Notes under the pieces: model-generated
Databases searched by the model: none
What the model was told of the DNA's origin: nothing
The model's input: only the letters and a program-made list of their open reading frames with translations
Assembly (NCBI RefSeq): GCF_014243345.1
Contig: NZ_JACLZF010000002.1
Coordinates: forward strand, 310,001-374,000
DNA length: 64,000 nucleotides
Reading direction: 5' to 3'
DNA from: Robiginitalea sp. SC105
Lineage (GTDB): Bacteria > Bacteroidota > Bacteroidia > Flavobacteriales > Flavobacteriaceae
Program-made: the position numbers and the translations under genes
In this document: one piece after another, positions 4,889 through 28,164 of the stretch
How the letters are laid out: the number at the start of each line of letters is the position of its first letter
How positions within the stretch are numbered: the stretch's first letter is position 1

Positions 4889-5262
4889 TAGTTCAAGGTA
4901 GTTAATTTTTCCTTCAAAAGTGAAAAGTCCAGGGGTTTGGTCAGGAAGTCGTCCGCTCCGAGCCGTTTCGCATTATCGCGGTTCTGCTGGTCCCCGTAGG
5001 CGGTGATCATCATCACCAGGGGGGGCGGGTTCTCGTACTGCGTCCGTATTTTTTCCAGCAATTCCAACCCGGTCATCCCCGGCATGTTGATATCCGAAAG
5101 GATCAGCACGGCCTTTTGTTCCATGGCCTCCATGAGCCGGAGGGCTTCTTCCCCGCTGAAGGCAAACTGGAAATCCAGCCGCCCGCTGCGGATTTCCTTG
5201 CGGAACCGCTGGCGGAACAGGAGTTCCACATCGCGTTCGTCGTCTACTACCAGTATTTTCAT
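4888..5262 (-). CDS. Single-domain response regulator (CheY-like receiver)
   Basis: A 124-residue protein that is only a receiver domain: D7/D8 acidic pocket, phospho-acceptor D57 in SDINMPGMTG, T87 and K109 in the FLTKPLDF block. No output domain follows. Its ATG overlaps the stop of kinase K8 (ATGA) and its stop overlaps the start of the receiver-cyclase (TAATG). The motif around D57 is almost the same as in the receiver-cyclase (SDINMP in both), which suggests that both are read by the same family of transmitters. It could be a phosphate sink, a shuttle, or a protein-interaction switch; the sequence does not decide. Confidence 0.93.
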   Translation of the reverse strand: MKILVVDDERDVELLFRQRFRKEIRSGRLDFQFAFSGEEALRLMEAMEQKAVLILSDINMPGMTGLELLEKIRTQYENPPPLVMMITAYGDQQNRDNAKRLGADDFLTKPLDFSLLKEKLTTLN

Positions 5263-8200: not shown

Positions 8201-8801
8201 CATACAGCATTCCAATTTCATTGTCGGAAAGTGAAGTGGGATCGTCCGGATCATGGGAATAACGCTTGAATTTTCCAGTTGCCGGATCCAGCCTGGAGAG
8301 ACCCTGGCGGCCCCCCACCCAGATGAAACCTTCGGCATCTTCAACAATGGCCCCTGTTTCCCCCGGCAGGATCGATTCCGGATCTTCCGGATCATGATTG
8401 TACCGGGTAAACTCCTCCAGCCCGGGATCATAAGCAGTGAGGCCCCCTCCACCCCAGTGGGTCAGCCACATGATGCCCTTACGATCAATTAGGATGCCTT
8501 CTATGTAGTCGCTGTTTAAGGTATTCTGGTTAATGGGGTCCGAGTTGTAGGTAATAAAATTCTTCCCGTCGTAGCGGTGCAACCCGGATTGGGAACCGAA
8601 CCATAAAAAGCCCAGCGGGTCCTGAACGATAGACTGCACACTGTTTCCGGTGGCCTCGCCGGGCAGTTGGAATTCTTCGAAGGCAAGGTCCGGCACATTG
8701 GCCTCTTCAGCGGCACTGCCCTGGGCATGCGCATTCAACAAACCAAACAATGCCGATAACAACAGCAGGATGGTTCGTTTAATATGAAATGTGAAGTACA
8801 T
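5259..8801 (-). CDS. Propeller sensor histidine kinase K8
   Basis: A 1180-residue membrane kinase. A signal peptide (to about residue 27, NAHAQ) leads into a periplasmic array of Reg_prop-type beta-propeller blades (for example FLWFGSQSGLHRYDG), then a Y_Y_Y domain at about 785-850. Next come PPWWKTWWAY and a transmembrane helix near 858-880, a coiled coil, and the HisKA domain with phospho-acceptor H934 in [12 protein letters not shown]. The HATPase has an N box ([10 protein letters not shown]), [14 protein letters not shown] and GTGLGLSM. It ends in a basic tail and has no fused receiver or AraC domain, so it is not a Bacteroides-type hybrid regulator. It overlaps the downstream receiver gene by four bases, the clearest kinase-receiver pairing in the array. 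Ligand unknown; propellers of this kind often read polysaccharide-derived cues. Confidence 0.93.
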   Translation of the reverse strand: MYFTFHIKRTILLLLSALFGLLNAHAQGSAAEEANVPDLAFEEFQLPGEATGNSVQSIVQDPLGFLWFGSQSGLHRYDGKNFITYNSDPINQNTLNSDYIEGILIDRKGIMWLTHWGGGGLTAYDPGLEEFTRYNHDPEDPESILPGETGAIVEDAEGFIWVGGRQGLSRLDPATGKFKRYSHDPDDPTSLSDNEIGMLYVDTTGTLWVSTGMPWSLNGRGGLNRFDSETDSFERYLHDPNDPTTLTNNKVRTLYEDSKGNFWVGTAGDGLHRFDQDNKTFTHYPYDPEHPDRPSMPFVEGTDLETAVPWSHISSIFEDNKGRLWIAAVYSGLNVYDPGLGITRHYEAREGEDELGSNFVWKIYQSDDGTIWVSTGGEGKMVYKVKENRFRFPFFHFEELEDPQMVTRGIIKDSTGAIWMAQSRPSPNSQPHRSKVWKINEGGTRPSLVRLNPDLSSSELSSFLGSISLDKSGNIWAGTFDGYRVGDLEEKNFENFVPDVGAPDDLPWVAPVLQSSTGAIWIPYWGRGLIRYEPENKTFEVFEYDPEDPRSISGVQIWALYEDSNGDIWAGGGSFTPSSDTPLFLDRYDPETNTFEPFLTTILPYGITSHITEDDNGNLWFSDGNFGLYKLNPATRDLKKFTSSNSSLPGTRISSIIQYPGGNIWIATDYELVELDPVNETFSIYDELHGIVPVTGTLTGHMSWDGDLLFARWEGYHAFNPGELLGEIKSNLPDLRITGFKLLDDSMYGSVTGQSEQVLEEPIWKTELIELDNTQNTFAFSVACFDFYQPGANTIQFMLEGYDRGWRSDIRNGDTPFYVNIAPGTYTFRLRGANGLGVWNTEGISMDIIVNPPWWKTWWAYTMYLIVFIGGVYGIHKIQRRRLILQERARSQQKELEQAREIEKAYEQLKATQEQLILSEKMASLGELTAGIAHEIQNPLNFVNNFSEVSSELVDEMNEELDKGDIPEAKAIAGDLKQNLEKINHHGRRADSIVKGMLQHSRGSEGKKEPTDLNALADEYLRLAYHGLRAKDKTFNATMETDFDEKLPKVRVVPQDIGRVLLNLLTNAFYAVNEKNKSAPESYVPTVRVASRKTPKGVEIEVSDNGNGMPKKVLDKIFQPFFTTKPAGQGTGLGLSMSYDIVKKAHDGELKVASREGDGTSFTVILPMPDKTKTPKKQSR

Positions 8802-8812
8802 TGGCTGGTTGG

Positions 8813-11800
8813 TTACCGGGGTAAGTTAACCAAAAAAGTGGCCCCTTCACCCTCCTTGCTGTTGACTTTGAGTTCCCCGTTATGCCCCTTGGTGACGATG
8901 TCATAGCTCATGGAGAGCCCCAGCCCGGTCCCCGCCCCGGTGGGCTTGGTGGTGAAGAAGGGTTGGAAGATCTTCTCCCGTATTTTTTCGGGTATTCCAT
9001 TTCCGTTATCTGCGACGCGGATTTCAACCCCGCCATTGGCCTTTTTGGTGCTGACCGTAACTTTGGGCTCATAGCCGGCTTCCCCTTGTTTCTGACGTTC
9101 TTGAACGGCGTGGAAAGCATTGGTGAGCAGGTTGAGCAGCACCCGGCCGATGTCCTGTGGGATGACACTCACCCGGGGCAGGTCCTGGTCAAAATTCGTT
9201 TCCACGGAAGCGTTAAAGGACTTGTCTTTGGCCCGCAGCCCGTGGTAAGCCAGGCGGAGGTATTCGTCGGCCAGTTTGTTGAGGTCGGTGGGTTCCTTTT
9301 TGCCGTCGCTGCTTCGGCTGTGCTGTAACATGCCTTTTACGATCCCCTCGGCCCGTTTGCCGTGGTATATAATCTTTTGCTCATTTTCATCAATATCGTC
9401 AGCGATGTCCTGAACCTCTTTTAATTTTCCGGCCTTCAAATCTTCTTTCAGTTCTTTGATAAGCTCGGAATTCACCTCTGAAAAATTATTGACAAAGTTC
9501 AGCGGGTTCTGGATCTCGTGGGCAATGCCGGCCGTGAGCTCGCCCAGGGAAGCCATTTTTTCGGAGTGGATGAGCTGGGTCTGGGTGGCTTTTAGCTGCT
9601 CATAGGCCTTTTCGATTTCCCGGGCGTGTTCCAGCTCTTTGGCCTGGGTTCGTTCCCGTTCCCTGCGCAACGTCCGATGTCTCTGGAAGAGGTGGAACCT
9701 GTACGCCATCAAGGCCAGCAGGAGCGCAAAGATGGCATAGGCCCATGTGGTCCTCCACCAGGGAGGGGTGATGGAGAAGGAGATAGTTTTTGCATCACTC
9801 CACACCATATTCGGATTGGCAGCCCGGACGGAGAAAGTATATTCTCCGGGGGGCAGGTCATAATAATATGCGGAACGGCTCCCCCCGACATACCGCCACT
9901 CGTCTTCGGTGGGGGACAACCTGTAGGCGAACTGGTTATTCTGGGGGTTGTCATAATGGATTCCGGTATAGGTGATGGATATATTTTTCTGGGTGTGGTC
10001 CAGGATAATGGCAGCGCCTTTGGTATCAGTGACCGACTCATCACCCACTTTCATACCCGTGATCCGGGTGATCGGCGGCTGGGTATCCTCGGTGAATGCC
10101 AACGGATCGAATATCGTTATCCCATTGCTGCCCCCGAAGGCGAATAACCCGTTGCTCAGTTCAAGGACGGAATGATCGGCATACAGGTTTTGCGCGCCTT
10201 CCGCATTCCCGTAGCTTGTGATTTGTTCGGTGGCCTTATCGAAACGGGCCATACCCCGGAATGTGCTCATCCAGAGCACATTGTTCTCATTGTCTTCCAG
10301 TATGCCCTGGATGCTTGGGCTCGGCAGGCCCTCATCCAGTCCATAGTACCGTATTTCCCCCGTTTCCGGGTTGTACCTGTTGAGCCCTCCCTGCCAGGTG
10401 CCTACCCATAAAGTTCCGTCCTCATCCTCCAGGAGGGAATTGATATCCTGGGAGGAGAAAACGGGTCCATCCTTTGGATCAAATCCATGACGTTTAAAAC
10501 TTCCCGTTGCCTTATCGAGCAAAAACAGTCCCGCGTTGGTTTGCACCCACAGACCTCCATGCCTGCTTTCCATGACCTCCAGGACCTCGTTGCTGACTTC
10601 CTGGCCCATCTCGCCCCGGGAAAAGTCATACCGTTCGTAAGAGTCCCTAGTCTGACGGTATAATCCGGACATCGTACTGATCCACAGGTCACCTTCGGAA
10701 TCCCGGTATACATGATGCAGAAACCCGAGGTCTGCGGTTTCATCCAGGATGTGCGGATCGATTACCTGACCCGTGTTGACATCATACCCGTATAACTTCC
10801 GCCCATCGCGAAACAATAGCCTTCCTTTATCATAGGCATTGATCATCTGCGGCCGGTTGAATTGGGGCAGCCGGTCCTTGAACAGGAATTTTTCAATTTC
10901 ACCCGTGGTGGGATTAATCTTGTTCAGGCCTTCTTCCCCGGCCGAGTTATAGGTGGCGAACCATACATTTCCGGATTCATCTTCAAACGGAGTGGTTGCC
11001 CAACCTTCGGTTACCGAATTAGGGTCATCCGGATTATGCAGGTAGGAGGTCAGCAATTGTTGGGGAGGGATACTGTAGAGGCCATACGATTGGGTTCCCA
11101 GCCATATATTGCCCATTGCATCATTCAGGAAGGCGGTAAAGGGCCTGAGTGTTGTGGTTGAGGGAGCGCTAAACTTACCGCTATTGACATCGAACAATTC
11201 CACTCCGTCCCGGTGACTTATCCACAAATAGTTCTGGTCAAACCCGATTCGTGTGGTCCAGTCCACCACGCCATTAAAGGAAGACGGAAAAGATAGGAAC
11301 TCGACGGTTTCCTGTGCAGGATCAATTTTACCGAGACGCCATTGGTTGGTGACAAACCAAATATTTCCGTGGTCATCCCATACGATATCCGAAGGAAATT
11401 CCTGATTTTCTTCAGAAAACATACCTGGTTCGGCTCCTAAGGACCGAATACTGCCAGATTCAATCAACACCAATCCCTGATTGGTCACAAGGGCTATTTC
11501 TCCTTCCGGGTTGCTCGCCATCTGATAGACGTTATGTACCGCTTCCCCATCCGGCAGGGTTACCATTTCGAAGGTTTCCGTGCTCTCGCTGAATTTGAGG
11601 AGCCCCGGGTAATCCTCATACCCCATTCTGGAGTTAATCCCGAAATATATGGTGCCCTTGCCATCGGATTCTATTTCGGAAATATTTGCCTGGGCATTTT
11701 CCGGGTAGTCAACGAAGTCGTAGATAGGATAGTTCCGGAATAATCCTGTCTTCACATCGCGGCGGTACACTTTGCCCTGACTCCCGATCCAGATATCCCC

Positions 11801-12073
11801 GTTGCTGCCCTCTTCGAGTTTATAGAGCAACAGGTCATCGATGGTTGTGGAGTCTTTTGGGTCCGGGTAATAATTTCTGAAATCGTACCCGTCAAAGGTG
11901 TATAGCCCGCTTAGCGTTGAGATCCATATCTCGCTGTTCCGGTCTGCCAGTAGGTCGGTGATGATGATCGAGTTGAGTTCCTCATAATAGTTGACCCGGC
12001 TAAACTGGTTTTGACTGTAGCCCCAATTGTAAATGAGCAGGAGGAATAACCAGATGGAAAAGCGCTGCATCAT
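8813..12073 (-). CDS. Propeller sensor histidine kinase K7
   Basis: A 1086-residue kinase with signal peptide ([20 protein letters not shown]), Reg_prop blades, a Y_Y_Y domain before [10 protein letters not shown], a transmembrane helix around 772-792, a coiled coil, and a HisKA-HATPase transmitter with H852. The start is placed at ATG 12073 because it overlaps the K6 stop (ATGATG after the last Glu codon); an upstream TTG at 12091 gives six extra residues and looks less likely. Its propeller is more divergent than those of K4, K5, K6 and K8: it has few of the HDPxDPxSL inter-blade motifs and more standard blades such as [15 protein letters not shown]. It ends 11 bases before K8, so co-transcription is likely. 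Confidence 0.92.
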
Positions 12074-15000
12074 TCGTTTAAGATAATACAAAATTCAGAG
12101 CCTTCACCTGTCTTCGATTCCACTTTAAGCTGCCCCCCATGCCCCTTGGTCACGATATCATAGCTCATGGAAAGCCCCAGCCCGGTACCTTCCCCGGTGG
12201 GCTTGGTGGTAAAGAAGGGCTGGAAAATCTTCTCCCGGATGCCTTCCGGGATACCACCCCCGTTGTCGGTTACCCGGATTTCAACCCCGGCATTGGTCTT
12301 TTTGGTGCTGACAGTAACTGTGGGCTGATAGCCTGCTTCCCCTTTTTTCTGACGTTCCTGGACGGCGTGGAAGGCGTTGGTGAGCAGGTTGAGCATTACC
12401 CGGCCGATGTCCTGGGGGATGACGCTGATCTCAGGCAGGCCCAGATCAAAATCCGTTTCCATGATGGCGTTGAACGATTTGTCTTTGGCCCGCAGCCCGT
12501 GGTAGGCCAGGCGCAGGTATTCGTCGGCCAGTTTGTTGAGGTCGGTGGGCTCCTGTTTGCCTTCGGAGCTGCGGCTGTGCTGGAGCATGCCCTTTACGAT
12601 ATCGCCTGCCCGGTTGCCGTGGTGGTTTATTTTTTCGAGGTTCTGTTTGAGGTCATTGGCAATGGCATCTACCTCCTGGTAGTCTTTCTTTTTGATCTCC
12701 TCTTTCATCTCGTCTACGAGCTCCCGGCTCACCTCAGAGAAATTGTTGACAAAGTTGAGCGGGTTCTGAATTTCGTGGGCAATCCCGGCGGTCAGCTCGC
12801 CAAGGGAGGCCATTTTTTCGGAGTGGATCAGCTGAGCCTGTGTGGATTTTAGATGGGTATGAGCAACTTCGAGCTTTTCATAGGCCTTTTTAATTTCAAG
12901 GGCTTGTTCCAGTTTTACTTTTTGGGCCTTTTCGCGCTCAAGGCGCAATACCCGTTCCTTTTGATAGTGGTACAGTTGCCAGAGCCCCAATAAGAAAAGG
13001 GCCGTATAAGCTGTATAGGCCCACCAGGTGGCCCACCACGGGGGCAGTACTTCCAGCTGAACCTCATTTTCGGACCATAGCCCGCTGCTGCTGTTCTGGG
13101 CTTTCAACCGGAAGGTATACGCTCCGGGCGGCACCGCTGCGTAATTGACGGGGAGTTCCGCACTGCCCTGAAGCCAACCCGGGTCGTATCCCTCGAGCAT
13201 ATACATCACCTCTTTCCCCCCCGAACTCCGGAAGTCAATCGCTGAATAGGAAATGGAAAAGGAGTTCTGGTCGGATTTCAACGTTACATCCATTGCCTGG
13301 CCATTTAAATCGATTAGGCTCAGGCTGTTCCCGGAATTCGATTCACCTTTTATCTCCAGTTCTGTCGCATACAACAGGGAGGTGTCCCGAGATTGCCATA
13401 ATTGCTCCGGGTTAAAGGCGTAGTAACCGTCATTCATTCCAAAAAGCAGGGTTCCGTCTTTTTTGCGATAGGGATAGTTCAGGGTGGCGTTCATCAAGAA
13501 TCCGCGAATCCCAAAGTGGGCCCCGAACTCCAGTGTGGTTCCGGATTTTGGATTGTATTTCAACAGGCCGGTTGTATTGTGGATCCATATATTATTTTCC
13601 GAATCATGTAGTACCTCCCTCGGGATCGTCTGTATGCCCGAATTCACGAATCGGCCTATTTTTGGGTCGTATTTGAACAACCCCAGTTCGCCGCCAGCCA
13701 CCCAAAGATCGCCATTGCCATCTAGAAGGAGGCTTGAGATCGTATATCCGCGCAGGTAGGTCCTGAACGATCCGTTCGAAGGATCCAAACGGCTCAACCC
13801 CTGGGCCGTTCCGATCCATAGATTTCCAGATGGGTCTTCCGCAAGGTCATATACCTCATCGTGCGCCAGGCTTGTACTGTCCTGCGGGTCATTCCGGAAT
13901 ATTTTAAAAGTACCCGATTCGCGCTTCAGCAGGTGCAACCCGCCACCGGTTGTCCCCACCCATAAATCGTAAGAGCTGTCTTCAAGGACATCGGATACCC
14001 ATGGCCATGCCAAACTTTCCGGGTCCTTCGGATCCGGGCTGTATCTCGTGAATTGACCCGTTTCCGGATCCAACTCATTCAGGCCTCCGGCGGTAGCGGC
14101 CCAGATTTTACCGTACCGATCTTTCGTTACGGAATTGACAACATCATTGCTGATACTAGTTGTATCCCCCGGGATATTCTTGTAAACGGTTCGCTTGCCT
14201 GTTGCGATATCTTCCCGTATCAGGCCCTCAGATGCCTTCCAGAGAATATTGGGTGATTCCTCATAAAAGTCCTTGACCTGGTTTTCCTTTATTATCGGGA
14301 AATCGTTCCAGAACAGATCAATCTTAAATAACCTGGGCTTCTCCTCCGTCATGATCCAAATAATGCCCTCATCCGACGCTAAGGCACACCATGCCGAATT
14401 ACTTCGGGCAAATGCATCCCAATCCTCGTTTTCGATTACACCTTCCGGATTTTCAGTAGCGGCCCCATAATGGGTTACCTTTTTATTAACCGGATCATAT
14501 CGGTTAACCCCATTGTCCACTGTGCCGATCCATATTTGCCCCATGCTGTCTTCGATGAGGAAAGTGATATGGGCCCAAAGTTCGTTTTCAATGGCTGGCC
14601 GGCTTAGATTATCCGGAAGGGCAGGATCATGGGTGTGGCGGGTGAAACGACCCGTTTTCCGATCCATGGTATGCAGCCCGTCACCATCGGTCCCCACCCA
14701 GAAATTACCATAGGAATCCTCCAGGATGGCACTAACCTTATTGCTTATGAGGCTCGTGGGATCTTCCGGGTCGTGGAGATATCGGGTAAATGTTCCGGAC
14801 TCCGGGTTAAACCGGTTCAAACCTCCGGCATCCGAGAAATAATCATAGGGAAATCCCGTGCCTGCCCAGATTGTTCCTTCACTGTCTTCATAAAGGGTTC
14901 GGACCACATTGTGGCTAAGGCTCGTGGGGTCGTTTTCATCATGCCGGAAATGTGTGAATTTCCCGGTATTCGGGTCCAGCCGGTCAAGTCCTTCGGAGGT

Positions 15001-15477
15001 GCCTGCCCAAACCATTCCGTTGCGATCAACGATAACCGTATGGACATATTTGTTGATCAGGCTTTCGGGGTCATCCGGATCGTGCCTGTAATGGGTGAAG
15101 GTATCGGTGTAGGGGTCATATTTATCGAGTCCCTCCCCTATAAGGGCGATCCAGATAAAACCGGAAGAATCGGCATAAAGGTCGTGCGGATAGGTTCCGC
15201 CAAGAGAATTGGGGTTTTCGCGATCATGCCTGAAGTACTTCATCTGGCTGCCGTCATAACGCACGATCATCTGGTTCGGCACATCTGAGAACCATATAAA
15301 ACCTCTTTTGTCCTCTGCGATGGAGGTAATCTTCCCGAGGGGGTCTCCGCCGGGTGTCAGGACTTCCTCAAAGATGATTTTCTGGGACTGGCCGGATACT
15401 ACCCCACTGTAAAAGACCATCCAGAAGGCTATAACGCACATTCGTTGAAGGCTATATCGTGACAGGTTCCTTTCCAT
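12070..15477 (-). CDS. Propeller sensor histidine kinase K6
   Basis: A 1135-residue kinase: signal peptide ([20 protein letters not shown], cleavage near VSGQS), propeller blades separated by a repeated HDPxDPxSLxxN motif, a Y_Y_Y domain, [10 protein letters not shown], a transmembrane helix near 816-838, a coiled coil, and a HisKA-HATPase with H901. Its sensor half closely resembles that of K4 (both start the mature part with SQKI and share the block [17 protein letters not shown]), which points to duplication. Its start lies only 6 bases after the SusC-like gene, so receptor and kinase are probably one transcript. At the DNA level its HATPase region shares a 109-base identical run with the soluble kinase K2 (12204-12312 against 28314-28422). 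Confidence 0.93.
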
Positions 15478-15483
15478 GGCTTA

Positions 15484-18400
15484 TTAAAACTTTGCCGTTA
15501 CACCCAAGGTTATTGTACGGGGCCTCGGGTAAGCCAGGTAGTCCAAACCTGCTGTGGGGATACCATTGAGAAAATTGGCACCGTTCGTATTAATCTCAGG
15601 ATCCAGGCCGCTATACCCTGTAATCAGAAACAGGTTTTGCCCGGTTATATTTAAAATAAGACTTTCAAGTGTTCCGGTATTGCCAAGCGGTACCTTGTAT
15701 GAGACGGTTGCGTTCTGGAAACGGACAAAATCGCCCTTTTCCAGAAAACGAGTGGATACCACGGCGGTGGAAGCAGGGTTCTCGCTGCTTGCAAGCACAT
15801 CCCTTGTAACGTTCTGAGACGTGGACAATTGCCCGGTGTTGAAGAAGGCATTGGCGGTGTTGTTGTAGACCGAGAATCCGAATTGGGCATTGAAAAAGGC
15901 CGAGAAGCTCCAATTCTTGTGCCGTAAGTTCAATGATAATCCCGAAGTGATATCCGGCAGGCCGTCTTCGCCCACAAAGAATTTGTCTACGTCGGGATTG
16001 CCGATGCCGTTGCCGTCTATATCCCGGTATGTAGGATTGCCCGCAGAATCGAATCCGGTGAATTCTGCCATATAAAAGGAAGCCAGGGAGCGCCCGGATT
16101 CAAAGCGCTGGGCAAAGGATCCGGTAACACCGGGGCCATTGATAGCCCCCGTATTTATCGCCCCACGGAAATCCTGGATTTCGTTGTGGTTATACGAAGC
16201 GTTTAATGAAATCCACAGGCCCGTGTCCACACTTTGAACAAGGTCATAGAAAAAGGAGAATTCTATCCCCTTGTTGATTACCAGAGCATCCACGTTCCCA
16301 AACTGGAAAGGGTTGGTGGAGGGTGCAGCCGGAGGTGTCTGCAATAGCAGGTCCGTGGTCCTTCTGCGGTAGACATTGATGCTTCCCTCCAGCCGGTCCA
16401 GGTTCAAGCCCCAGTCGATACCAATGTTGACATCCAGCGTAGTTTCCCATCTGAGGTCTGGAACGTCCGTGGCGACGATGGACAGGCCATTCTGGTTTAC
16501 TGAGCCGTCGAGGTTTATTTCGAGATCCGAAAAACGCTGCCGGGCTACGAAGTTTCCATAACCAATACCCTCCTGGTTGCCGATGAGGCCGGCGCTAATC
16601 CTTAGTTTCAGGGTGGAGATGCGATTACCTATAAAATCTTCATCCCCGATCTGCCATGCGAAGGCACCTGAAGGGAAGAACCCGTACTGGTTTTCCGGGC
16701 CAAACCTGGAAGATCCGTCGGCCCGCAGGGTGGCGGTTAAAAAGTATTTTCCGGCGATGGAGTAGTTAACCCTGCCAAAAAAGGATTGCAGTTCATCTGT
16801 GAAGTTGTAATAATCTGCTGTTACGGCCTGTAACCGCCGGGAGAACCGAAAGGGGACCTCCTGGCCCGCCACCACATCGGGAAAAAGCCTGTTAACCTTC
16901 AGCGTTTCCCAGTTGCTGCCGTAAAAAAATTGCTGGAATGACCCTCCAACAGATTCGGCAGCGTCCCTGACCGTATTTCTAAGTTCATTGCCCATAGCTT
17001 TCAGACTTGAGGATTCGAAACCCCGGCCGGTGGAATTCCTGCCGGACGTCCTGAAACTTTGGTAGGCATACCCCACAAGGGCATCCAACGAATGGTTTTC
17101 AAAATCCTTCTCGTAGGTAACGGTGGCCTCCAGTAACCGGCTTGCCTTTTCAATATTGAAAAGTTTTCCTGTGTCACTTCCCAAAAAGTCATCTGCGTTC
17201 TCCCCACTGTTTAAAATGTTAGTCGTGGAGCGGGAGTCGTCATACCCCACGACAATCTTTGTGGAAATTTCCGGAGTAAGATCATATGCCACGGATACAT
17301 TAAGCAAGCTTCTTTTTGTTGAACCGCTGACCTGCTGATATTCCAAAACTTCCGAAGGGGTGAGGATGTTCTGGGAATTAAAATCGAGGCTTGCAGGAAT
17401 GGTCGGGTTGGCCCTGTAGGCTACAAAAAATGCTTCTTCAGGGGAAAAGGCCTCGTCCTTTACCTCGGTAAGTGTCCCTCGGAAACCGAGTTCCAGCCTG
17501 TCCCTGAAAAACCGTTGGGACCAGTTGAACCTTCCGTTGATCCGTTTCAGGGAGGATTTTTTAATAATACCGTACTGATCCTGGTAACCGATGGAAGCGA
17601 AAAAATTTCCGCTCCCATAATTTTTGGACCAGGAAAGATTCAGGTTTTCAGAAATGCTCGTCCTCGTAACAAATTCCTGCCAGTCCGTATCACCGCCGAA
17701 ATCCCGTGCCTCCGCATCACCACCCAATCGTGAAATACCTGCCAGGTATTCCTCCCGGTTCAAAAGGTCAAATTTACTGGCAGCAGTGGCTATACTTACC
17801 GCGGAGGAAAATTCAAAAACGCCCTGACCGCCTGACTTTCCGCTTTTTGTAGTTATGATGACCACTCCATTGGCGCTTCGGGAACCGTAAATAGCGGTGG
17901 CGGAAGCATCCTTCAGGATGCTGATACTTTCAATTTCCGAGGGGTTAAGAAAATTCAGGGGGTTCCTGGGAGGCCTGTCGGAATCGAATGTGGCGGTCGC
18001 CCCCCCATCCAGGGGGATCCCGTCTACAACAAATAAAGGATTGTTGCCTGATCGTATCGAATTACTGCCCCTGATACGGGTTTGGATCCCCGCTCCGGGC
18101 TCTCCGCTGGACACTGTTATCTGTACCCCGGCAGCTTTGCCCTGAATCAGTTGTTCCGGCGAATTGATGACACCCCTGTTGAACTGCTCCTCCTTCACCG
18201 CAACAAGGGCACCTGTGGCATCCGCTTCGGTTGTGGTTCCATACCCGATGACGATCACTTCATCGAGATAGGTGTCGGATACCTCCAGTGTGATATTCAG
18301 TGTGGTTTGTCCATTAACCGGAACTTCTTTAATCGCATAACCCACATAAGAAATTTCCAGGCTCGCATTTGAACCGGATATCTCCAGTGAAAAATGCCCC

Positions 18401-18591
18401 TCGAAATCGGTTTGTGTCCCGTTGGTGGTTCCTTTCTCCACAACAGCGGCTCCCATCAGCGGGCCATTGTTATCTGAAACGGTACCGGAAACGGAAAATT
18501 CCTGGGCAGCAACCCTACTCGAACCAATAACCAGTGCTACCATAAAAAGCACTTTGGTTATTAGACATAAATGTCCGGTTTTACAATTCAA
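15484..18591 (-). CDS. SusC/RagA-type TonB-dependent outer membrane receptor without a SusD partner
   Basis: A 1035-residue outer membrane transporter of the SusC family. It has a signal peptide (cleavage near VAAQE), a carboxypeptidase-D regulatory-like domain at about 30-110 (SVSGTVSDNNGPLMGAAVVE), a plug with the DEVIVIGYGT TonB-box region and the SusC-signature blocks VQITVSSGEPG and NPLFVVDGIPL, and a beta-barrel ending in an aromatic-terminal strand (ITLGVTAKF). No secretin/TonB short N-terminal signalling domain is seen. SusC proteins normally pair with a SusD lipoprotein encoded just downstream; here kinase K6 begins 6 bases downstream instead. The start used is TTG 18591; an internal ATG 48 bases further in would leave only a very short signal peptide. 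Substrate unknown. Confidence 0.93.
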   Translation of the reverse strand: MNCKTGHLCLITKVLFMVALVIGSSRVAAQEFSVSGTVSDNNGPLMGAAVVEKGTTNGTQTDFEGHFSLEISGSNASLEISYVGYAIKEVPVNGQTTLNITLEVSDTYLDEVIVIGYGTTTEADATGALVAVKEEQFNRGVINSPEQLIQGKAAGVQITVSSGEPGAGIQTRIRGSNSIRSGNNPLFVVDGIPLDGGATATFDSDRPPRNPLNFLNPSEIESISILKDASATAIYGSRSANGVVIITTKSGKSGGQGVFEFSSAVSIATAASKFDLLNREEYLAGISRLGGDAEARDFGGDTDWQEFVTRTSISENLNLSWSKNYGSGNFFASIGYQDQYGIIKKSSLKRINGRFNWSQRFFRDRLELGFRGTLTEVKDEAFSPEEAFFVAYRANPTIPASLDFNSQNILTPSEVLEYQQVSGSTKRSLLNVSVAYDLTPEISTKIVVGYDDSRSTTNILNSGENADDFLGSDTGKLFNIEKASRLLEATVTYEKDFENHSLDALVGYAYQSFRTSGRNSTGRGFESSSLKAMGNELRNTVRDAAESVGGSFQQFFYGSNWETLKVNRLFPDVVAGQEVPFRFSRRLQAVTADYYNFTDELQSFFGRVNYSIAGKYFLTATLRADGSSRFGPENQYGFFPSGAFAWQIGDEDFIGNRISTLKLRISAGLIGNQEGIGYGNFVARQRFSDLEINLDGSVNQNGLSIVATDVPDLRWETTLDVNIGIDWGLNLDRLEGSINVYRRRTTDLLLQTPPAAPSTNPFQFGNVDALVINKGIEFSFFYDLVQSVDTGLWISLNASYNHNEIQDFRGAINTGAINGPGVTGSFAQRFESGRSLASFYMAEFTGFDSAGNPTYRDIDGNGIGNPDVDKFFVGEDGLPDITSGLSLNLRHKNWSFSAFFNAQFGFSVYNNTANAFFNTGQLSTSQNVTRDVLASSENPASTAVVSTRFLEKGDFVRFQNATVSYKVPLGNTGTLESLILNITGQNLFLITGYSGLDPEINTNGANFLNGIPTAGLDYLAYPRPRTITLGVTAKF

Positions 18592-18731
18592 GGGATCAAT
18601 TTATTATTTCTTAATGCAATTGTGCCTGCATATTCAGATCCTACTCATTGGCGTCTAAAGGGTTTGAGTATATAGTTGAATTAAGCATGGAGGTTATCTG
18701 GCGCATGCATAACGCGCTTAAACGCTCATCT

Positions 18732-18739
18732 CTAAGATA
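18732..18739 (-). promoter_or_regulatory. Candidate -7 promoter element upstream of the SusC-kinase operon
   Basis: The octamer TATCTTAG on the minus strand differs at one position from the Bacteroidota TAnnTTTG -7 consensus. It lies about 140 bases upstream of the SusC-like start, in the largest gap (244 bases) within the propeller-kinase part. The same octamer stands before the DUF4242 gene at 28074-28081. An imperfect palindrome around GCGCTTAAACGC (near 18715-18726) sits close to the expected start of transcription and could bind a regulator. Confidence 0.35.
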
Positions 18740-18835
18740 TTAAAAAAATCACCTTCAGGTAAATTCCCGCGGGGAATGCGGTTTGGGCATAAAATCTCAA
18801 TCGCGGGGGTCAACGGTTCCGGGGATACCGGGAAA

Positions 18836-21800
18836 CTAGCCGGGCAACATAAATGTAAAAGTTGCACCCTCACCGATTTTACTCGTTACGGATAACTCCC
18901 CCCCATGGGCTTTTATAATGTCATAACTCAGGGAAAGCCCAAGCCCGGTGCCCTCACCGGTAGGTTTGGTGGTAAAGAATGGCTGGAAGATCTTGTCCCT
19001 GATTTTATCCGGAATGCCGAGGCCGTTGTCGGTTACCTGGATTTCAACGCCTTCTTTGGTTCGACGGGTTCTGACGATAACCATGGGGCCATAGCCCTCA
19101 GGTGCATCCTTTTTCTTTTCGTTGACGGCATGAAAAGCATTGGTGAGCAGGTTGAGCAGCACCCTTCCGACGTCCTGGGGGATGACACTAACCTGGGGCA
19201 GGTCCGGATCGAAATCCGTTTCAAGGGTGGCGTTGAATGACTGATCCTTAGCCCGCAATCCGTGGTAGGCCATTCGCAAATATTTGTCTGCCAGTTTATT
19301 CAGGTCGGTGGATTCCTTCTTGCCATTGCTGCTGCGGCTGTGCTGCAACATGCCCCTGACAATACTGCCCGCCCGCTGGCCATGGTGGACGATCTTTTCC
19401 ATGTTCTGGACGAGGTCTTTTGCGATATAGTCAGCTTCTTCCGTATCCCCTTTTTTCAGCTCATCCCTCATTTCTTCCAGGAGTTCCCGGCTAACCTCAG
19501 AGAAATTGTTGACAAAGTTGAGCGGGTTCTGAATTTCGTGCGCAATCCCGGCGGTCAGTTCGCCGAGTGAGGCCATTTTTTCGGAATGGATGAGCTGGGA
19601 CTGGGCGGATTTCAGATTGGAGTGTGCCACTTCGAGTTTGGAATAGGCCTTTTCAATTTCCCGGGCTTGCGCAAGTTCTTTCTGCTGGGACTTTTCGCGT
19701 TCCAGGCGCAATACGCGTTCCTTTTGATACCTGTATATCAACCATGCGCTCAGGATCAAAAGGATGGCATACAGGCCATAGGCCCACCAGGTGGCCCACC
19801 AGGGGTTTGCAACCCGGATATCAATGCTTTTTTCTACCCATTCACTGCTGTTGAGCACAGGGGCCTTGTAGATGAATTTGTAGTTGCCCGGGGGGACCTT
19901 TACATAGTTGACCTGTTGGCCTGAAAGGGATTCCTGCCAGAACTCATCGAAACCCTCCAACCTGTAAAGGATCTTTTTTTTGAAGGCACCTCTGAATTCG
20001 ATGGCGGCCAGGGTAATACTAAAAGTGTTTTGGCTATAGTCCAGGCGGATCGTGCCCGACGCATCCAGGGAGGTTGCAATTTTACTCTCCGCAGAAGGGA
20101 AAACCGGCTGGTTGTTCACCTTTAGTCTGTGCAGGTACAATCGCGGTTTCTCTATCGGGTTCTTAAAGGTAGTCGGATCGAAATAATAGTAGCCCCGCGG
20201 GCTGCTGGCAAAGTATATACTCCCCTCACTTCCGGCATAGGCACTTGTTAGATAGGGGTTTTGGTCTACAAGGACGCCATTCCCGGCGCCAAATTTTTCA
20301 ATATTGTCCCTTGCGGAATCCACTTTTACGATTCCCGTAGCAGTCCCAATCCAGAGGTTGTCGGATGTATCGGCTGCGATGGAAAAGGAAAATCCCCCCA
20401 GGTATTCCCCTGTCCTTTCCAACCTGAAAGGGATGATGGTGTCCCATGGCGGAGGGCTATGCCATACCCCGTTGTTGCTGGCTATCCACAGCCGGTCTTC
20501 AATATCCATATGCATATCGTTGAAACTGGGAATCGCCTGGTCCGATACAATTTCAAACTGATCCGTAGCGCTGTTTAATTTAAAAACATGATTGGTGGTG
20601 GATACGAATAACCTGCCGGAATCGTCGGCTGCGATATTCGTGATAGCCTGCCGCTCCCCGGTTGGGGTAAGCTCCCGGTAAACCGGGGCCTGCCGTTGCC
20701 GGTCCATATGGAACAGGCCCATGTTGGTGCCAATCCATAAAGCTCCACCTTGGTCCTCATAAATATCGGAAATGATGGTTTCAACTGTTCCATCCGGCCC
20801 TTCAGCGAAATTCCCGAACCTTGCAAAACCATCCTCGTCTTCGTTGTATCGGTTCAACCCGTTTCGCGTACCGATCCAAAGGGTATTTTCCTTGTCCTTG
20901 TAGATGTTGGTAATCCGGTTGTCCGTAAGGCTCCAGGGGTCTGACGGGATATGCTGGTATCTTTTGGTTGCTCCCGTGGCCGGGTTCTTCAGTATCAGGC
21001 CATTTTCCTCCGTCCCTATCCATAGTTCTTCAGAGCCCCGCTCGAAAACACATGCCACCTGATCATCAACAAGCGCCTCGCTGATCCGGGGTCGTTCCGG
21101 ATCTGCCTTGTATAGCTTGCTTTCCTCCGTGGCAACCCAAAGCAAGCCATCTTCAGAAACATGGGCCCACCATGTGGAGTTCTCATCGTAATCTCCTGAG
21201 GGCTGAGTATCTGCACCAATCCGGGACATGGTTTCCGACCGGGGATCCCAGCGGACAATGCCGTCACTAAAGGTGCCAAACCAAAGGAATCCCCTGTGGT
21301 CTTCCTTGATAAAGGTAATATGGTCCATAAGGTTTTCCGGGGCGGGTATTTGCAATTTGCTTTCAGATTCTGCATTGGCGGTGTAGCGCTTAAAAGTTCC
21401 ATTGGTCCGGTCCATCAAATGGAGGCCGTTATTGTTTGTGCCCACCCAGAAATTCCCACGGCTGTCTTCATAAATTGCTCGCACCTTATTGCCCAGAAGG
21501 CTCTTGTCATCCTCCGGATCATGCAGGAATCGGGTAAAGGAATTTGTCCCGGGGTCATAGCGGTTCATCCCCCCGTTTTTCTCATCCGGGTCCCAGGGGA
21601 CCCCTGTTCCAATCCAGATCGTCCCTTCCTGGTCTTCATAAAGGGAGCGTACAAGATTGCTGCTCAGGGATGTACTATCGTCCGGATCGTGGCGGAAATG
21701 TGCAATGTCTCCCGTAACCGGGTCCAGCCGGTCGAGTCCCTCAGTAGTCCCCAGCCATAGCCTTCCCTGCCGGTCCGGCAGGAGTACGACAACCGTATTG

Positions 21801-22234
21801 CTGATAATGCTTTGTGGCTCATCCGGGATGTGCTTGTAATGGGTGAACGTTTCGGTAAGCGGGTCAAACCGATCCAGCCCCCCGGGGTCGCCGTATCCGA
21901 TCCAGACCACTCCGTCCTCACCGGCTGCCAGGGATTCGGGATAATGGCCCCCCAGGGAATTGGGGTTGTCGGGTTCATAGGGGAATTTGGTCACTATGCT
22001 GCCGTCATACCTGAAAACACAGCGGTTGGCCTGATCGGAAAACCAAAGGAACCCGTTGCTATCCTGGGTAATGGCATTGATCTTCCCAAAGGAATATTCC
22101 TCCACCCCCGGAATAAACTTGAATTCTGGCACCGCCTCCTGGCTATGAACAAGGCTATCCTGAAGGCCGGGAATGAGCGCGATCAGCCATATGGACAAAT
22201 ACCGGAAGTTATGGGATAATCCTTGCGGCCTCAT
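18836..22234 (-). CDS. Propeller sensor histidine kinase K5
   Basis: An 1132-residue kinase with signal-anchor region (hydrophobic [10 protein letters not shown] near residue 22), Reg_prop blades with HDPxDP inter-blade motifs, a Y_Y_Y domain, [11 protein letters not shown], a transmembrane helix near 815-835, a coiled coil, and a HisKA-HATPase with H899. The start is set at ATG 22234, which overlaps the stop of K4 by four bases; a TTG at 22288 in the same frame would lie deep inside K4 and is rejected. The last kinase before the 244-base gap ahead of the SusC-like gene, it is probably the end of one transcript. The HATPase reads [10 protein letters not shown] where most sisters have [11 protein letters not shown]. 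Confidence 0.92.
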
Positions 22235-25200
22235 GATATGAGGGATTTCGGTAAATGTAAGAGGAATTCGGTGCCGCCGGTTTCGCAATTCGAAAAGGTA
22301 AGGGCACCTCCGTGCCCCTTGGTCACGATATCGTAACTCATGGAGAGCCCCAGCCCAGTACCCTCCCCGGTGGGCTTGGTGGTAAAGAAGGGCTGGAAAA
22401 TCTTCTCCCGTATGCCTTCCGGGATACCACCCCCGTTGTCGGTGACCCGGATTTCAACGCCATCCGGGGTTCTGCGTGTACTCATGGCAACGGTGGGCTC
22501 GTAACCCGCTTCCCCTTGTTTTTGACGCTCCTGAACGGCGTGGAAGGCATTGGTCAGCAGGTTGAGCAGCACCCGGCCGATGTCCTGTGGGATGACGCTG
22601 ATCTCAGGCAGGCCCGGATCAAAATCCGTTTCCATGATGGCGTTGAAGGACTTGTCCTTGGCGCGGAGCCCGTGGTAGGCCAAACGCAAATATTCGTCGG
22701 CCAGTTTGTTCAGGTCGGTGGGCTCCTTTTTGCTTTCCGAGCTGCGGCTGTGCTGCAGCATGCCTTTTACGATCCCCTCGGCTCGTTTGCCGTGGTGTTC
22801 GATTTTCTCGAGGTTCTGGAAGAGGTCTTTTGCGATTGCATCGGCCTCCTTTTTATCGCCCTTCTTGACCTCCTGCATCAATTCCCCAAGTAATTCCCGG
22901 TTCACTTCGGAGAAGTTGTTCACGAAGTTCAGCGGATTTTGGATTTCGTGGGCGATGCCGGCGGTAAGTTCCCCGAGAGAGGCCATTTTTTCGGAATGGA
23001 TCAACTGGGTTTGGGCGGCCTGGAGTTTATTGTAGGCTTGTTCGATTTCCCTTGCATGTTCCAGTTCCTTTTTCTGGGCTTTCTGTCGCTCCTCCCGCAA
23101 GACACGCTCCTTCTGGTAGTTGTGAATCAGCCAAACTCCCAGTGCCAACAGCAGGGCATACAGACAATAAGCCCACCATGTGCCCCACCAGGGGGGTAGG
23201 ATGACCATTGGAAATGCCTTTTCAGACCATATACCGCTACTGCCGTTTAACGCCTTCAACCGGAAGGTGTATTCGCCGGGTGGCACCTTGAAATAATTTG
23301 CCGGGGTCCCGGCTTTGCCTTCCAGCCATCCCAAATCATAATTTTCCAGCATGTACAGGAGTTGGTTTTGCCCCGAATTCCGAAAATCGATCGCCGCAAA
23401 CAAGATGGAGAAAACATTCTGGGAATAATTCAGCTCAATAGCTTCATCCTCCGCATTCCAGTCCTCCAGGTTAAAGTTGGTTTCCAGGAATCCTGAATTT
23501 CCGTTTATCCGGAAGTCTGTAACGTACAATAAGGAGGTATCCCGGGAAACCCATAGGTCATCCGGGTTGAAGGCGTAATAGCCCCCCTCCGCGCCAAAAA
23601 GAATCGTTCCGTCCTTTTTGCGATAGGGGAAGCTGTACAAGGACAGTTGCAAAATCCCCCTTACCCCGTTTTTCTCACCATAAACAAGGGTGCTGCCAGT
23701 CTCAGGATCATATCGCATGATGCCTCTCGAATTGTAGATCCAGAGGTTGTTTTCAGTATCATCGATTACCAGGGTTATATCCGAGGAAATGCCTGTATCC
23801 ACAAATTGGTCCGTTTCCGGGTCATAGCGATACAAGCCAATTGCCGTACCAGCCCAGAATATTCCATTCTCATCGAGAAGTAGGCTAAGCACCGCCAGCC
23901 CGGGAAGATACCTTTTAAACGTACCGCTTGCCGGTATATACCTGTTCACACCTGCTCCGTCTTCCATCGTTCCGATCCAGAGATTCTGTTGCGCGTCTTC
24001 CCCGATTACAGTGATGATGTCACTGGAAATTGAACTGACGTCAGTCGTATTACTACGAAACACTCTGAATCGCCCGGAATTCCTGTCCAGAAGATTCAGT
24101 CCACCAGAGGTCCCGACCCACAGGTTGTTGCCACTGTCCTCATAAATATGGTTAACCCTGGGGTCGCTCAGGCTCTCAGGATCATCTGGCTCCGGCAAAT
24201 ACTTCATAAAATATTCGGTGACCGGCTCGAATGTGTTCAGGCCATTATTCGTAGCTATCCAAAGCTTATTGAGACGATCTTTTGTAATGAAATTGATCTG
24301 ATTGCTGCTGATACTACCAGCATCGTCCGCATTGTGCCGGTAGGCCTTAACCGTACCCTTATCAAGATCTTCCCGGATAAGTCCACTCCAACCACCCTTC
24401 CAAAGTATGGAACGGTTTTCCTCATAGAAATTCTTCATCCAAATATTTCCTTTTAGCGGGATCTCATTGCTGAAAAGATCGACTTTGAAGAATTTCGGTT
24501 GTTGTTGGGTGCTCAACCAAATATGCCCTTCCTGGGTAGCCAGAGCACACCAGCCCGAATTACTCTCGGTATATGCCTTCCAGCTTTCATTGTATAACAC
24601 CGTTTCCGGCACTGTAGGGGAATCGCCGAAAAATGTAAAAGTGTCGGTTTTCGGATCATAGCGGTTGATGCCGCTGTGTTCCGTACCGACCCAGATGTGT
24701 CCTTCTGCATCTTCGGTCAGAAAGGTAATATGGGTGAATGGCTCTCCGGTATCGGGCGGACGGCTCAATTTTTCGGGATGATCCGGGTCGTAGGTATGTC
24801 GGGTAAAGGTGCCGGTTTCGCGGTCCATGGTGTGCAGGCCGTCCCCATCGGTCCCAACCCAGAAATTGCCCTGGCTGTCCTCGAGGATGGCCCTGACCTT
24901 GTTGCTGATAAGGGAGGTCGGATCCTCCGGGTCGTGCATGAAGCGGGTAAACGTTCCGGATTCCCTGTTCAGCCGGTTCAGTCCGCCTTCCGGAATATTG
25001 TTATAGGCCATCCCTGTGCCAACCCAGAGCGTCCCGGACCGGTCTTCGTATAATGAACGTACATTGTTGCAGCTCAGGCTACTGGAGTCGCCTTCGATGT
25101 GTTTGAAATGCCGGAAGGCACCGGTTTCCCGATCCAGCAAATCCAGCCCATTTTCAGTGGCTACCCACAGGTTGTCAAGGTGGTCTTCAAGTATGGCCCA

Positions 25201-25635
25201 TACATTATCGTTTGTAAGGCTGTTTGCCTCCTCAGGGTCGTGACGGTAATGGGTAAACGTGTTTGTCCGGGGGTCGAACCGGTCAAGGCCCTGCCCGTAA
25301 AAACCAATCCAGATAATACCGGAATCTTCAACAAAAAAGGTTTCCGGGTAGGGACCTCCCAGGGAATTCTTGTCTTGCGGGTCGTGCCGGAAGAATTCCA
25401 TGGAGCTGCCATCATACCGGACAATGGCGCGGTTGGACTGATCCGAAAACCACAGGAATCCCTGTTTATCCTTTGCAATGGCATTAATCTTTCCAAAAGA
25501 ATTTCCGCTGGGAGTCCTAATTTCCTCGAAGCTTATTTTCTGCGACTGGCCTGTAACAAAAGCACAGCCTAGTGCCAGAAAACCAGCAAGAAGCACCAGA
25601 AGCCTAAACCGATATAAAGGAAAAGCCTTTTTCAA
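22231..25635 (-). CDS. Propeller sensor histidine kinase K4
   Basis: A 1134-residue kinase with signal peptide ([20 protein letters not shown]), propeller blades with HDPxDPxSL motifs, a Y_Y_Y domain, [10 protein letters not shown], a transmembrane helix near 818-840, a coiled coil and a HisKA-HATPase with H896 and [15 protein letters not shown]. The frame starts with TTG at 25635; no ATG lies before the signal peptide, so TTG is the probable real start. Its periplasmic part is close to that of K6, including the unusual segment in which a run of blades ends in PYRKKDGT and [16 protein letters not shown]. It overlaps K5 by four bases. K3 lies 90 bases upstream on the same strand. Confidence 0.92.
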
Positions 25636-25725: not shown

Positions 25726-27738
25726 TTAGATACTTAAGATAATAATAAACTCGGAACCTTCACCAGGTTTCGAATGAACCCTGATTGATCCCCCATGCCC
25801 CTTGGTCACAATATCGTAACTCATGGAAAGCCCCAGCCCGGTACCCTCCCCGGTGGGCCTGGTGGTAAAGAACGGCTGGAAGATCTTGTCCCGGATGTTT
25901 TCAGGGATGCCAGCCCCATTGTCAGTGACCCGGATCTCAACCCCGCCTTTCGCCCTTCGGGTACTAACGGTAACCATGGGTTCATAGTGGCCGGGGGCCT
26001 CCTTTTGCTTTTCATTGACAGCATGGAAGGCGTTGGTCAGCAAATTGAGCAGCACCCGGCCAATATCCTGCGGAATTACGCTTACCTCGGGTAGGTCCGG
26101 ATCAAAATCGGTTTCCATGGAAGCGTTGAACGATTTGTCCTTGGCACGGAGCCCGTGGTAGGCCAGGCGCAGGTATTCGTCCGCCAGCTTGTTCAGGTCG
26201 GTGGGCTCCTTTTTCCCATCGTTGTTGCGGCTGTGCTGCAGCATGCCCTTTACGATGCCGTCGGCCCGCTTGCCGTGGTGGGCAATCTTTTTGAGGTTCT
26301 GCATCAGGTCCTCCAGAATGGCCTTTGCCTCGTCCACGTTCCCTTTTTCGAATTCCTCCCGCATCTCCGCCAGCAATTCATTGCTTACTTCGGAGAAGTT
26401 GTTTACAAAGTTGAGCGGGTTTTGTATCTCGTGGGCAATGCCGGCGGTCAGTTCCCCCAGGGAGGCCATTTTTTCGGAATGGATCAGTTGTTTCTGGGTA
26501 GCCTTCAATTCCCCGAATGCCTTCTCCAATTTTTGTTTCGCCTCGTCCAGTTGCTTGAAATCCAGATGCCGCGCATAGGCCACAGAGAACGACTCGGCCA
26601 GGGATTGGGCAAGCTCAATATCCTGGAAACTCATGGATTCACGACTCCCTACATATAACATTCCCTGGGCAAATGGAACAAATTGCAGGTGGAGCATGTC
26701 AAAGTATGTGTCCTTACCCATGAATTCCGACATCCCCTGAATATACCCCTTGTCAACCAGTGACTTCACCCATTGCTCAAACTCCTGACGATCCCATTGT
26801 TCTCTGAAGATCTTTTCATCCCTCCAGTGGGATACCATGTCACGTATAATTTCCGATTCGTCAAAGGGGAGGCTGAGCATCCCGATGGTTTCTGAATTAG
26901 GCGTTGACAGGTAGGCATTAACGATTTGTACCTCCTGGTCTATAATGAATAATCCGCAGCGAACAAAAGGAACGTTCAGGTGCGTCAGCACATTCCAGAG
27001 CATGGGGGTGATCTGGTTCAGGTCATCCGCAGTATGCATGGATGCGATCTCCGCCCGAATGCCGTTGAGGGCCGATTGTTGTCTGGCCTGTCGCGTATGC
27101 GCTCTCAGGTTCTGAAGGTCCTGAAAGCGCATGTAAATTTGGCCAAATACTCCCGCTAGACGGATCAGGATGTTACAATCCTCTTCTGACAATGCTTCAG
27201 GTGTTGTCAGGTAGAGGGATCCTTTTGGGAAAAAGAACCAGTAAATATATTCCGCCGGGCTATATACCTGTTCCCGAGACTGAGAGAGGTAAATGGAGGT
27301 GGACTGGTAGAATTCACGCACTTCTTCCCCATTGAGAATGGTACGCATATAGGGGTCCCGGTTTTTCCGGGCAGGTATGATTTTTTCATAAACGGGGTGA
27401 ATGTGTAAGCTGATGTAATCAAATATTCGCTTGAGGCCATCCGTTTCAGAAGTTGTGGTAAGCCAGAGCTCAATAGCATCGTTTTCCTCGTCGAATATGC
27501 CTACCCCGCAACGGATGGCTTGAATCCCGAGTTCTTTCAGGTTATGAAAAAATAACAACGAGGTGTCCGATAAACCCGAACTGCCCTGGATGGAAATGGC
27601 GTTTGAGCTGGCTTTCCTCAGGATGGTTTCAATAGCCAGATCCCGGCTCAATTGATCTAGCTGCGCCTTGTACTCGTTGGCTTCCCTTTGCAGGGACGCT
27701 ATTTTTTGCTCAAGTTTGTCAGCCTTATTTTTCCCCAT
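25726..27738 (-). CDS. Soluble GAF-like histidine kinase K3
   Basis: A 670-residue cytoplasmic kinase: no signal peptide and no transmembrane helix. An N-terminal coiled coil (residues 1-25) is followed by two tandem GAF-like modules of about 190 residues, at roughly 25-215 and 220-400. A coiled coil and the HisKA-HATPase transmitter follow, with H436 ([12 protein letters not shown]) and [11 protein letters not shown]. The second module ([12 protein letters not shown]) is the close counterpart of the ninth module of K1 ([12 protein letters not shown]). It therefore looks like a short relative of the giant kinases. It follows the DUF4242 gene by 32 bases and precedes the propeller kinases K4 and K5, thus physically linking the soluble and membrane sensor types. 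Confidence 0.9.
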
Positions 27739-27770
27739 GGTTTGCTTATGAGCCTTTGGCGATCCCAGGG

Positions 27771-28043
27771 TTACTCACCTGTTGCAGGATCGATGATACT
27801 GCCTATCCGGGTGATCTTGTTGGCCGGAAAGCCCCCGAGTTTGGCATGTTCGCGGATAAGCTCTTCACTTGGGGCCATGTAGATGCAGTACATTTTATCC
27901 CCGGCGACATAGCTGTGGATCCATTGGATATCCGTACCCAATCTACAAAGTATTTCATTTGAGGTTTTGGAGGCTTGTTTCAGCTCCTCGGGGGAGAAGG
28001 ATCCGACGTTGGGAATTTCGCGTTCAATAATAAACTTTGGCAT
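27771..28043 (-). CDS. DUF4242 family small protein
   Basis: A 90-residue protein (MPKFIIEREIPNVGSFSPEE start) that fits the ferredoxin-like DUF4242 family, of which one actinobacterial member is described as nickel-binding. The core blocks here are WIHSYVAGDKMYCIYMAPSE and IREHAKLGGFPANKI. It is encoded between two histidine kinases, 121 bases downstream of K2 and 32 bases upstream of K3. In this position it might be a small ligand-binding or stress-related accessory of the sensors, but that rests on location only. Confidence 0.85.
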   Translation of the reverse strand: MPKFIIEREIPNVGSFSPEELKQASKTSNEILCRLGTDIQWIHSYVAGDKMYCIYMAPSEELIREHAKLGGFPANKITRIGSIIDPATGE

Positions 28044-28073
28044 AGGTTGTCTGAATTAAATATAAACGCACTT

Positions 28074-28081
28074 CTAAGATA
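28074..28081 (-). promoter_or_regulatory. Candidate -7 promoter element upstream of the DUF4242-K3-K4-K5 unit
   Basis: TATCTTAG on the minus strand, about 30 bases before the DUF4242 ATG, matches TAnnTTTG in all but one position and is identical to the octamer ahead of the SusC-like gene. It lies in a 121-base AT-rich gap, one of the few untranslated gaps of the array. No clear -33 TTTG partner was found. Confidence 0.38.
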
Positions 28082-28164
28082 GGCATAATTGTATTTGCTG
28101 CAGTGATCGGTAAACGGGTGGGCACATCATTTTGGTATTTTCATTAGCGATTTTCAGACCGTGA

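Follow-up and report, generated by a model that had tools for sequence, protein, structure and literature searches.

A SusC gene among sensor kinases

The window, as we call the whole 64,000-nucleotide stretch of the Robiginitalea sp. SC105 genome analysed here, carries on its reverse strand eight histidine kinase genes and two response regulator genes, with a SusC-type gene set among the kinases. It is usual to regard SusD as an almost obligatory neighbour and partner of SusC, yet the gene that follows SusC at this locus is a kinase, K6; 6 bp (15478-15483) separate the SusC stop from its ATG. The original prediction of a SusC placed within a kinase operon and followed after six bases by K6 is thus borne out. 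In the order in which they would be transcribed, the features are:

32892-38897, (-): histidine kinase of 2001 aa with internal repeats and no likely membrane span (Pfam, hydropathy)
28165-32895, (-): histidine kinase with a SnoaL_3 domain and internal repeats, no likely membrane span (Pfam, hydropathy)
25726-27738, (-): histidine kinase without a propeller, no likely membrane span (Pfam, hydropathy)
22231-25635, (-): propeller sensor kinase, closest paralog of the kinase at 12070-15477 (53% over the compared region)
18836-22288, (-): propeller sensor kinase upstream of SusC (Pfam)
18592-18835, (-): gap of 244 bp between the kinase at 18836-22288 and SusC, lacking the elements of a polysaccharide utilisation locus (PUL)
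15484-18591, (-): SusC/RagA-type TonB-dependent transporter without an adjacent SusD (ORF, Pfam, TIGR04056, structure comparison)
12070-15477, (-): propeller (Reg_prop)-Y_Y_Y-HisKA-HATPase sensor kinase K6, 6 bp downstream of SusC (Pfam)
8813-12091, (-): propeller sensor kinase (Pfam)
5259-8801, (-): propeller sensor kinase (Pfam)
4915-5262, (-): single-domain, CheY-like response regulator (resembles the receiver encoded at 3848-4888)
3848-4888, (-): response regulator fused to an adenylate/guanylate cyclase domain (Pfam)

By sequence the transporter is a SusC. Its reading frame is intact and encodes 1035 aa from a TTG start; a signal-peptide-like N-terminus is followed by CarbopepD_reg_2 (residues 34-114), the plug (residues 123-243; PF13715 and PF07715 are both above the Pfam cut-off) and the barrel. 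The SusC/RagA model TIGR04056 scores it at 633.2 bits, summed over neighbouring pieces in one frame (curated cut-off 368.25), and the solved structures nearest to it are those of SusC homologs. The structure model has 22 alternating barrel strands at low confidence (mean pLDDT 40); its best Foldseek matches are SusCs, which from so poor a model support the fold family only. FecA-type transducing receptors have an N-terminal STN domain, whereas Pfam (E <= 0.001) reports no STN or FecA-type signalling domain in the window SusC, in agreement with the original prediction, and a transducing receptor of this type is ruled out on that ground.

All eight kinases share the H-box AHEI(Q/K)NPLNF, and five of them carry Reg_prop propellers. 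A moderately hydrophobic segment precedes the H-box in the five propeller kinases (19-residue means 0.87 to 1.74), and a crude hydropathy scan found no convincing span or signal peptide in the other three (25726-27738, 28165-32895 and 32892-38897); a first scan at a strict threshold had given spans in only two of the eight. Because of the family to which they belong, the propellers would lie in the periplasm. The earlier picture of periplasmic propeller sensors therefore holds for these five as a reading by family, and not for the sensors as a whole, as three of the eight kinases have no likely span. The likely output of the operon is the CheY-like regulator together with the response regulator-cyclase. 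Sensors of the envelope and of the cytoplasm may both act on the cyclase, the cytoplasmic ones being the kinases at 25726-38897.

Some further features of the run deserve mention. A repeat occurs in ten copies in the kinases at 28165-32895 and 32892-38897 (29510-38310), mostly at a spacing of 549-567 nt (~187 aa). At the 3' ends of the eight kinase genes (5359-33696), blocks of 200-300 nt are 66-95% identical to a reference copy, and this identity suggests duplication, perhaps with gene conversion. A DUF6090 gene (3066-3851) adjoins the receiver-cyclase, and several DUF6090-like genes are found near some sister operons (e.g., G367 and G105).

The SusC gene and the kinase at 12070-15477 are presumably co-transcribed, because they are spaced by only 6 bp and no terminator-like site was called on the operon strand between them; none was called in the 244-bp upstream gap either. 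That gap may hold a promoter of SusC's own. Its RNA structure is in no way notable (z -1.40), and a strict Bacteroidetes-type promoter pattern has no match anywhere in the window, a result of little weight given that 0.84 matches are expected by chance.

SusD genes and the maltodextrin paralog

The genome (3.58 Mb in three contigs, 99.99% complete) encodes eight SusC-type proteins above the TIGR04056 cut-off and seven SusD proteins, as counted with PF07980, PF14322 and PF12771. None of the seven lies in the window, as the original prediction had stated for SusD-like genes. Each of the other seven SusCs is adjoined by a SusD, six detected through PF07980/PF14322 and one through PF12771, and the window SusC alone has none. 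A search for an unlinked SusD, proposed along with the original prediction, thus turned up no free one. A private unlinked SusD is ruled out, since all seven already adjoin another SusC; any partner would therefore be shared, unless a SusD escaped the three models. In the 40 SusC loci that we read (the window, its own paralog and 38 relatives, family matches without a given locus being excluded), SusD follows directly downstream in 39 and is missing only in the window. According to PMC8319329, 216 of the 306 SusC-like proteins detected have a SusD next to them and 62 are undetermined, although nearly every one is expected to have such a neighbour. A SusC that lacks an annotated neighbour is on those counts already known, and the novelty of the present case therefore lies in its setting and its retained docking side. 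The window contains no SusD, and the 11 proteins scanned in 3066-38897 show no domain of a carbohydrate-active enzyme, so that the locus falls outside the definition of a PUL.

The best match to the window SusC in its own genome is a paralog on another contig (C1:185981-189085, 59% identity), which is followed after 9 bases, as called, by a SusD (C1:189.1-190.7 kb). The pair is divergent from genes for LacI, a HAD-like hydrolase, GH65 and a GH13 cyclomaltodextrinase. By its gene content this locus fits a maltodextrin PUL, and PMC6298971 describes reduced PULs for alpha-glucans that have a single gene each of GH13 and GH65. At E <= 1e-180, the maltodextrin SusC is present in all ten genomes of the genus and is matched in 95 of the 397 family genomes, where scoring was limited to two candidates per genome; in both samples the window genome is the only one with two copies.

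Two upstream elements of the PUL SusC genes in the genus are missing at the window copy. The promoter element TATATTTG lies upstream of the PUL SusC in 10/10 genus genomes, and the 12-mer CGAAACCGTTTT, the core of a palindrome-like site CGAAACCGTTTTCG that is presumably the LacI operator, lies upstream in 8/10; both are absent upstream of the window SusC. Retained PUL control is ruled out by their absence.

Uneven divergence and the SusD-side loops

The window SusC has evolved fast and unevenly. In a tree of 40 rows its end branch is 1.11 changes per site long (median end branch 0.15), and it retains 215 of the 236 residues that are invariant in the other 39 rows; in a leave-one-out count, the next most changed row has 12 of 248 invariant residues altered. 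A pseudogene is ruled out by the open frame and these 215 retained residues.

Loops that bear on SusD have been named in related systems: L6 and L7 are hinge loops to SusD in Bt1762-63 (PMC7782687), loop 8 touches SusD in the substrate-bound levan utilisome (PMC7618045), and a lid-moving role is given to L7 and L8 in RagAB (PMC11817032). We took loop borders and numbers from the 22-strand model, with its mean pLDDT of 40, and equivalence to the loops of these systems is by loop number. The relevant features, all within or part of the SusC gene, are:

15847-17106, (-): central part of SusC, residues 496-915, approximately strands 9-19 and loops L5-L9 (trees, divergence)
16681-16710, (-): loop L6, residues 628-637, hinge2 equivalent by loop number; 0.99 identity to the genus
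16453-16569, (-): loop L7, residues 675-713, hinge1 equivalent by loop number; 0.80 identity to the genus, rank 6/30
16294-16344, (-): loop L8, residues 750-766, SusD contact by loop number; 0.98 identity to the genus, rank 1/30

Ranks compare the window SusC with 29 SusD-paired relatives from outside the genus (30 proteins in all) by similarity to the genus. None of the 30 is less genus-like than the window protein in the N-terminal domain (CTD), plug, strands, L3 and L4; it ranks 29th in L1 and L11 and 28th in L2, yet its L8 is identical to that of its own PUL SusC and ranks first without ties. L6 ties for first with 12 of the 29 relatives, being near-invariant in the family, and is therefore by itself no evidence on docking. 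The remaining loops rank 10th (L9), 14th (L5) and 19th (L10); L5 and L9, which are not known as SusD hinges, are also little diverged. L6-L8 show the smallest excess divergence among the 11 circularly contiguous loop triplets, and three of the 165 possible triplets, L6-L8 included, are as low, the loops not being independent of one another. On the modelled loops, this pattern is what would be expected of a SusC that still docks the maltodextrin SusD of the genus.

Trees also set the centre of the protein apart. Residues 496-900 fall inside the genus clade of maltodextrin-PUL SusCs, with G001, G005, G008 and G009 (SH-aLRT 93-99), and residues 116-495 and 901-1035 fall outside it. The AU test rejects a grouping of these flanks with the genus (p-AU 0.005); for the centre, a single clade of the genus without the window SusC is not rejected (p-AU 0.149). 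Over residues 100-500 the best matches are in other genera (57-58%), compared with 52% for the own paralog and 52% and 49% for the two sampled members of the genus, G003 and G005, and the last loop, LNGIPTAGLDY, is near those of L114, L115 and L018 and unlike the genus form. Only one of the 11 genus-diagnostic sites is in the genus state in the window, which does not favour recombination with the genus, though such sites are too few; synonymous sites are near saturation, within the genus too, and hence uninformative. A patchwork origin of the window SusC is likely from these comparisons, and its conserved centre may reflect either recombination or selection. Recombination of the centre would explain L5-L9 without selection for docking, yet would also supply a matching docking face.

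These results bear on two other accounts of the gene. A SusC that works alone, as an importer dedicated to supplying the ligands that the kinases measure, would agree with the lack of a linked SusD and the 6-bp link to the kinase. In the levan system of PMC7782687, a strain without SusD needed a lag of ~8 h before it grew on levan, as did a mutant of the SusD binding site, and some SusD-free SusC activity may therefore be possible. We nevertheless think this account quite unlikely, as an L8 closer to the genus than that of any of the 29 SusD-paired relatives is unexpected in a transporter without a lid, and the one counterpart found in another genome (see below) has its SusD. The transporter could alternatively be a second importer of maltodextrin or alpha-glucan that shares SusD in trans, serves nutrition alone and has no functional tie to the kinases. 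Its maltodextrin-PUL ancestry and its L7-L8 speak for such a role; the absence of the PUL promoter and presumed LacI operator speaks against it, as do the changes in L3, L4, L11 and the plug, because of which the substrate probably differs from that of the maltodextrin-PUL SusC. On balance we find it doubtful.

A second case and the proposed role

Matches to the receiver-cyclase occur in 39 of the 397 family genomes (E <= 1e-100). The stretch upstream of it, to a limit of 40 kb, was read in another 40 genomes, namely 37 of the 39 (the own genome and G233, at a contig end, being excluded) plus G001, G004 and G009, with several stretches shortened by contig ends. The runs hold 1 to 8 kinase-like ORFs, some runs being cut by contig ends, and only one of the 40, in G278 of another genus, has a SusC inside the same-strand kinase run. 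The runs of G005, G034 and G214 end within the fetched stretch with no SusC inside, and in G398, G105 and G284 ORFs with weak similarity (25-34%) lie outside the kinase run. The G278 operon is of the same type as that of the window, in the order propeller kinase, SusC, SusD, a 180-aa kinase remnant, FIST-type proteins, kinases and receivers. Its SusC lies directly downstream of the propeller kinase and keeps its SusD, whose start overlaps the SusC stop by one base, whereas the window SusC has no SusD neighbour. The G278 SusC is of another lineage, with 35% identity to the window SusC (best local match) and ~27% end to end to the maltodextrin SusCs. The association of SusC with this operon appears rare and probably arose at least twice, once with SusD kept. 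Among open-licence papers, searched by titles and the starts of abstracts, we found no SusC in a kinase/receiver-cyclase operon, and an "orphan SusC" in the search results is a SusC/D pair.

The G278 kinase remnant (L195:16736-17275, 180 aa) has only an ATPase domain by Pfam and comes directly after SusC-SusD, and it looks as though the pair had landed within a kinase gene. Two related ORFs of 379-383 aa, one of them FIST by Pfam, lie beside a small kinase at L195:14350-16644 of the same operon; ORFs of ~379-383 aa are also seen in many sister operons, a likeness by length only.

That 39 of the 40 other operons have no SusC in the run could mean that the gene is a recombinational passenger, landed among similar kinase modules, expressed by virtue of its position and with little or no role in signalling. 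The presence of a second copy in only one of ten genus genomes, the very long branch of the window SusC and the kinase 3'-end blocks, 66-95% identical and so a substrate for recombination, all fit this account. It sits poorly with an open frame that has kept 215 of 236 invariant residues, with a divergence so uneven that L8 is kept, and with the second case in G278, and we regard it as rather unlikely.

We prefer, at a probability of roughly 0.4, the reading that a maltodextrin-type SusC in a kinase operon uses the maltodextrin SusD as its lid in trans, is expressed alongside the sensors and imports oligosaccharides; the odds of this reading and of its rivals overlap and need not sum to 1. A maltodextrin-type SusC would have arisen by duplication, or else have come from a close relative with some recombination, and the copy would have ended up inside the multi-kinase operon. 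It would have lost its SusD, its promoter and the presumed LacI operator, and would have diverged in the plug, N-terminal domain, L1-L4 and L11, keeping the loops of the SusD-docking side. The protein would now serve as a second transporter, relying on the SusD encoded in the maltodextrin PUL of the other contig and produced together with the sensors, and the oligosaccharides it imports could be met by the five propeller sensors in the periplasm. We infer both the supply of SusD in trans and the altered substrate; that the imported ligand is what the sensors detect is speculative. A more specific proposal, in which a lid-sharing importer serves sensing, with its docking face kept, a new specificity, uptake wired to second-messenger output rather than to degradation, and recruitment at least twice, seems to us improbable.

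The original prediction of a solitary SusC holds in so far as no SusD is linked to the gene. It is weakened by the paralog that has a SusD, by the identical L8 and by the SusD of the G278 SusC; with such a paralog at hand and L8 kept while most of the protein diverged, SusD in trans, which by the terms of the original prediction would count against it, is the likelier arrangement. The proposed coupling of import to detection gains modest support from a complete SusC-SusD pair in a like operon, that of G278, one of the 40 others. If the docking loops are kept without a neighbour, the locus offers a natural test of whether one SusD serves two SusCs and of which loops matter for docking of the lid. 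The multi-kinase/receiver-cyclase setting, together with a second genus, means that a link between outer-membrane import and sensing can be tested in a setting other than a classical PUL.

The closest known systems include the maltodextrin/alpha-glucan PUL SusC of Flavobacteriaceae, with the same domains, the same L8 and a near-identical L6-L7; the plug, N-terminal domain (CTD), L1-L4 and L11 have diverged in the window copy. The loci themselves differ, as that of the window lacks the SusD, the GH65/GH13-type enzymes, the LacI-type palindrome and the PUL promoter of a maltodextrin PUL and is a kinase operon. The levan SusCD Bt1762-Bt1763 and RagAB, both of solved structure, are homologous to the window SusC over the N-terminal domain, plug and C-terminal barrel; both are SusC-SusD pairs, whereas the window SusC has no SusD gene alongside. 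PUL-linked hybrid two-component systems (HTCS) lie beside susC/susD. The window resembles them in bringing together Reg_prop/Y_Y_Y sensors and a SusC transporter at one locus, but Pfam reports no receiver or HTH in any of its eight kinases, which thus do not have the form of an HTCS, with sensor, kinase, receiver and HTH joined in a single protein, and the output is given over to separate receivers, one of them fused to a cyclase.
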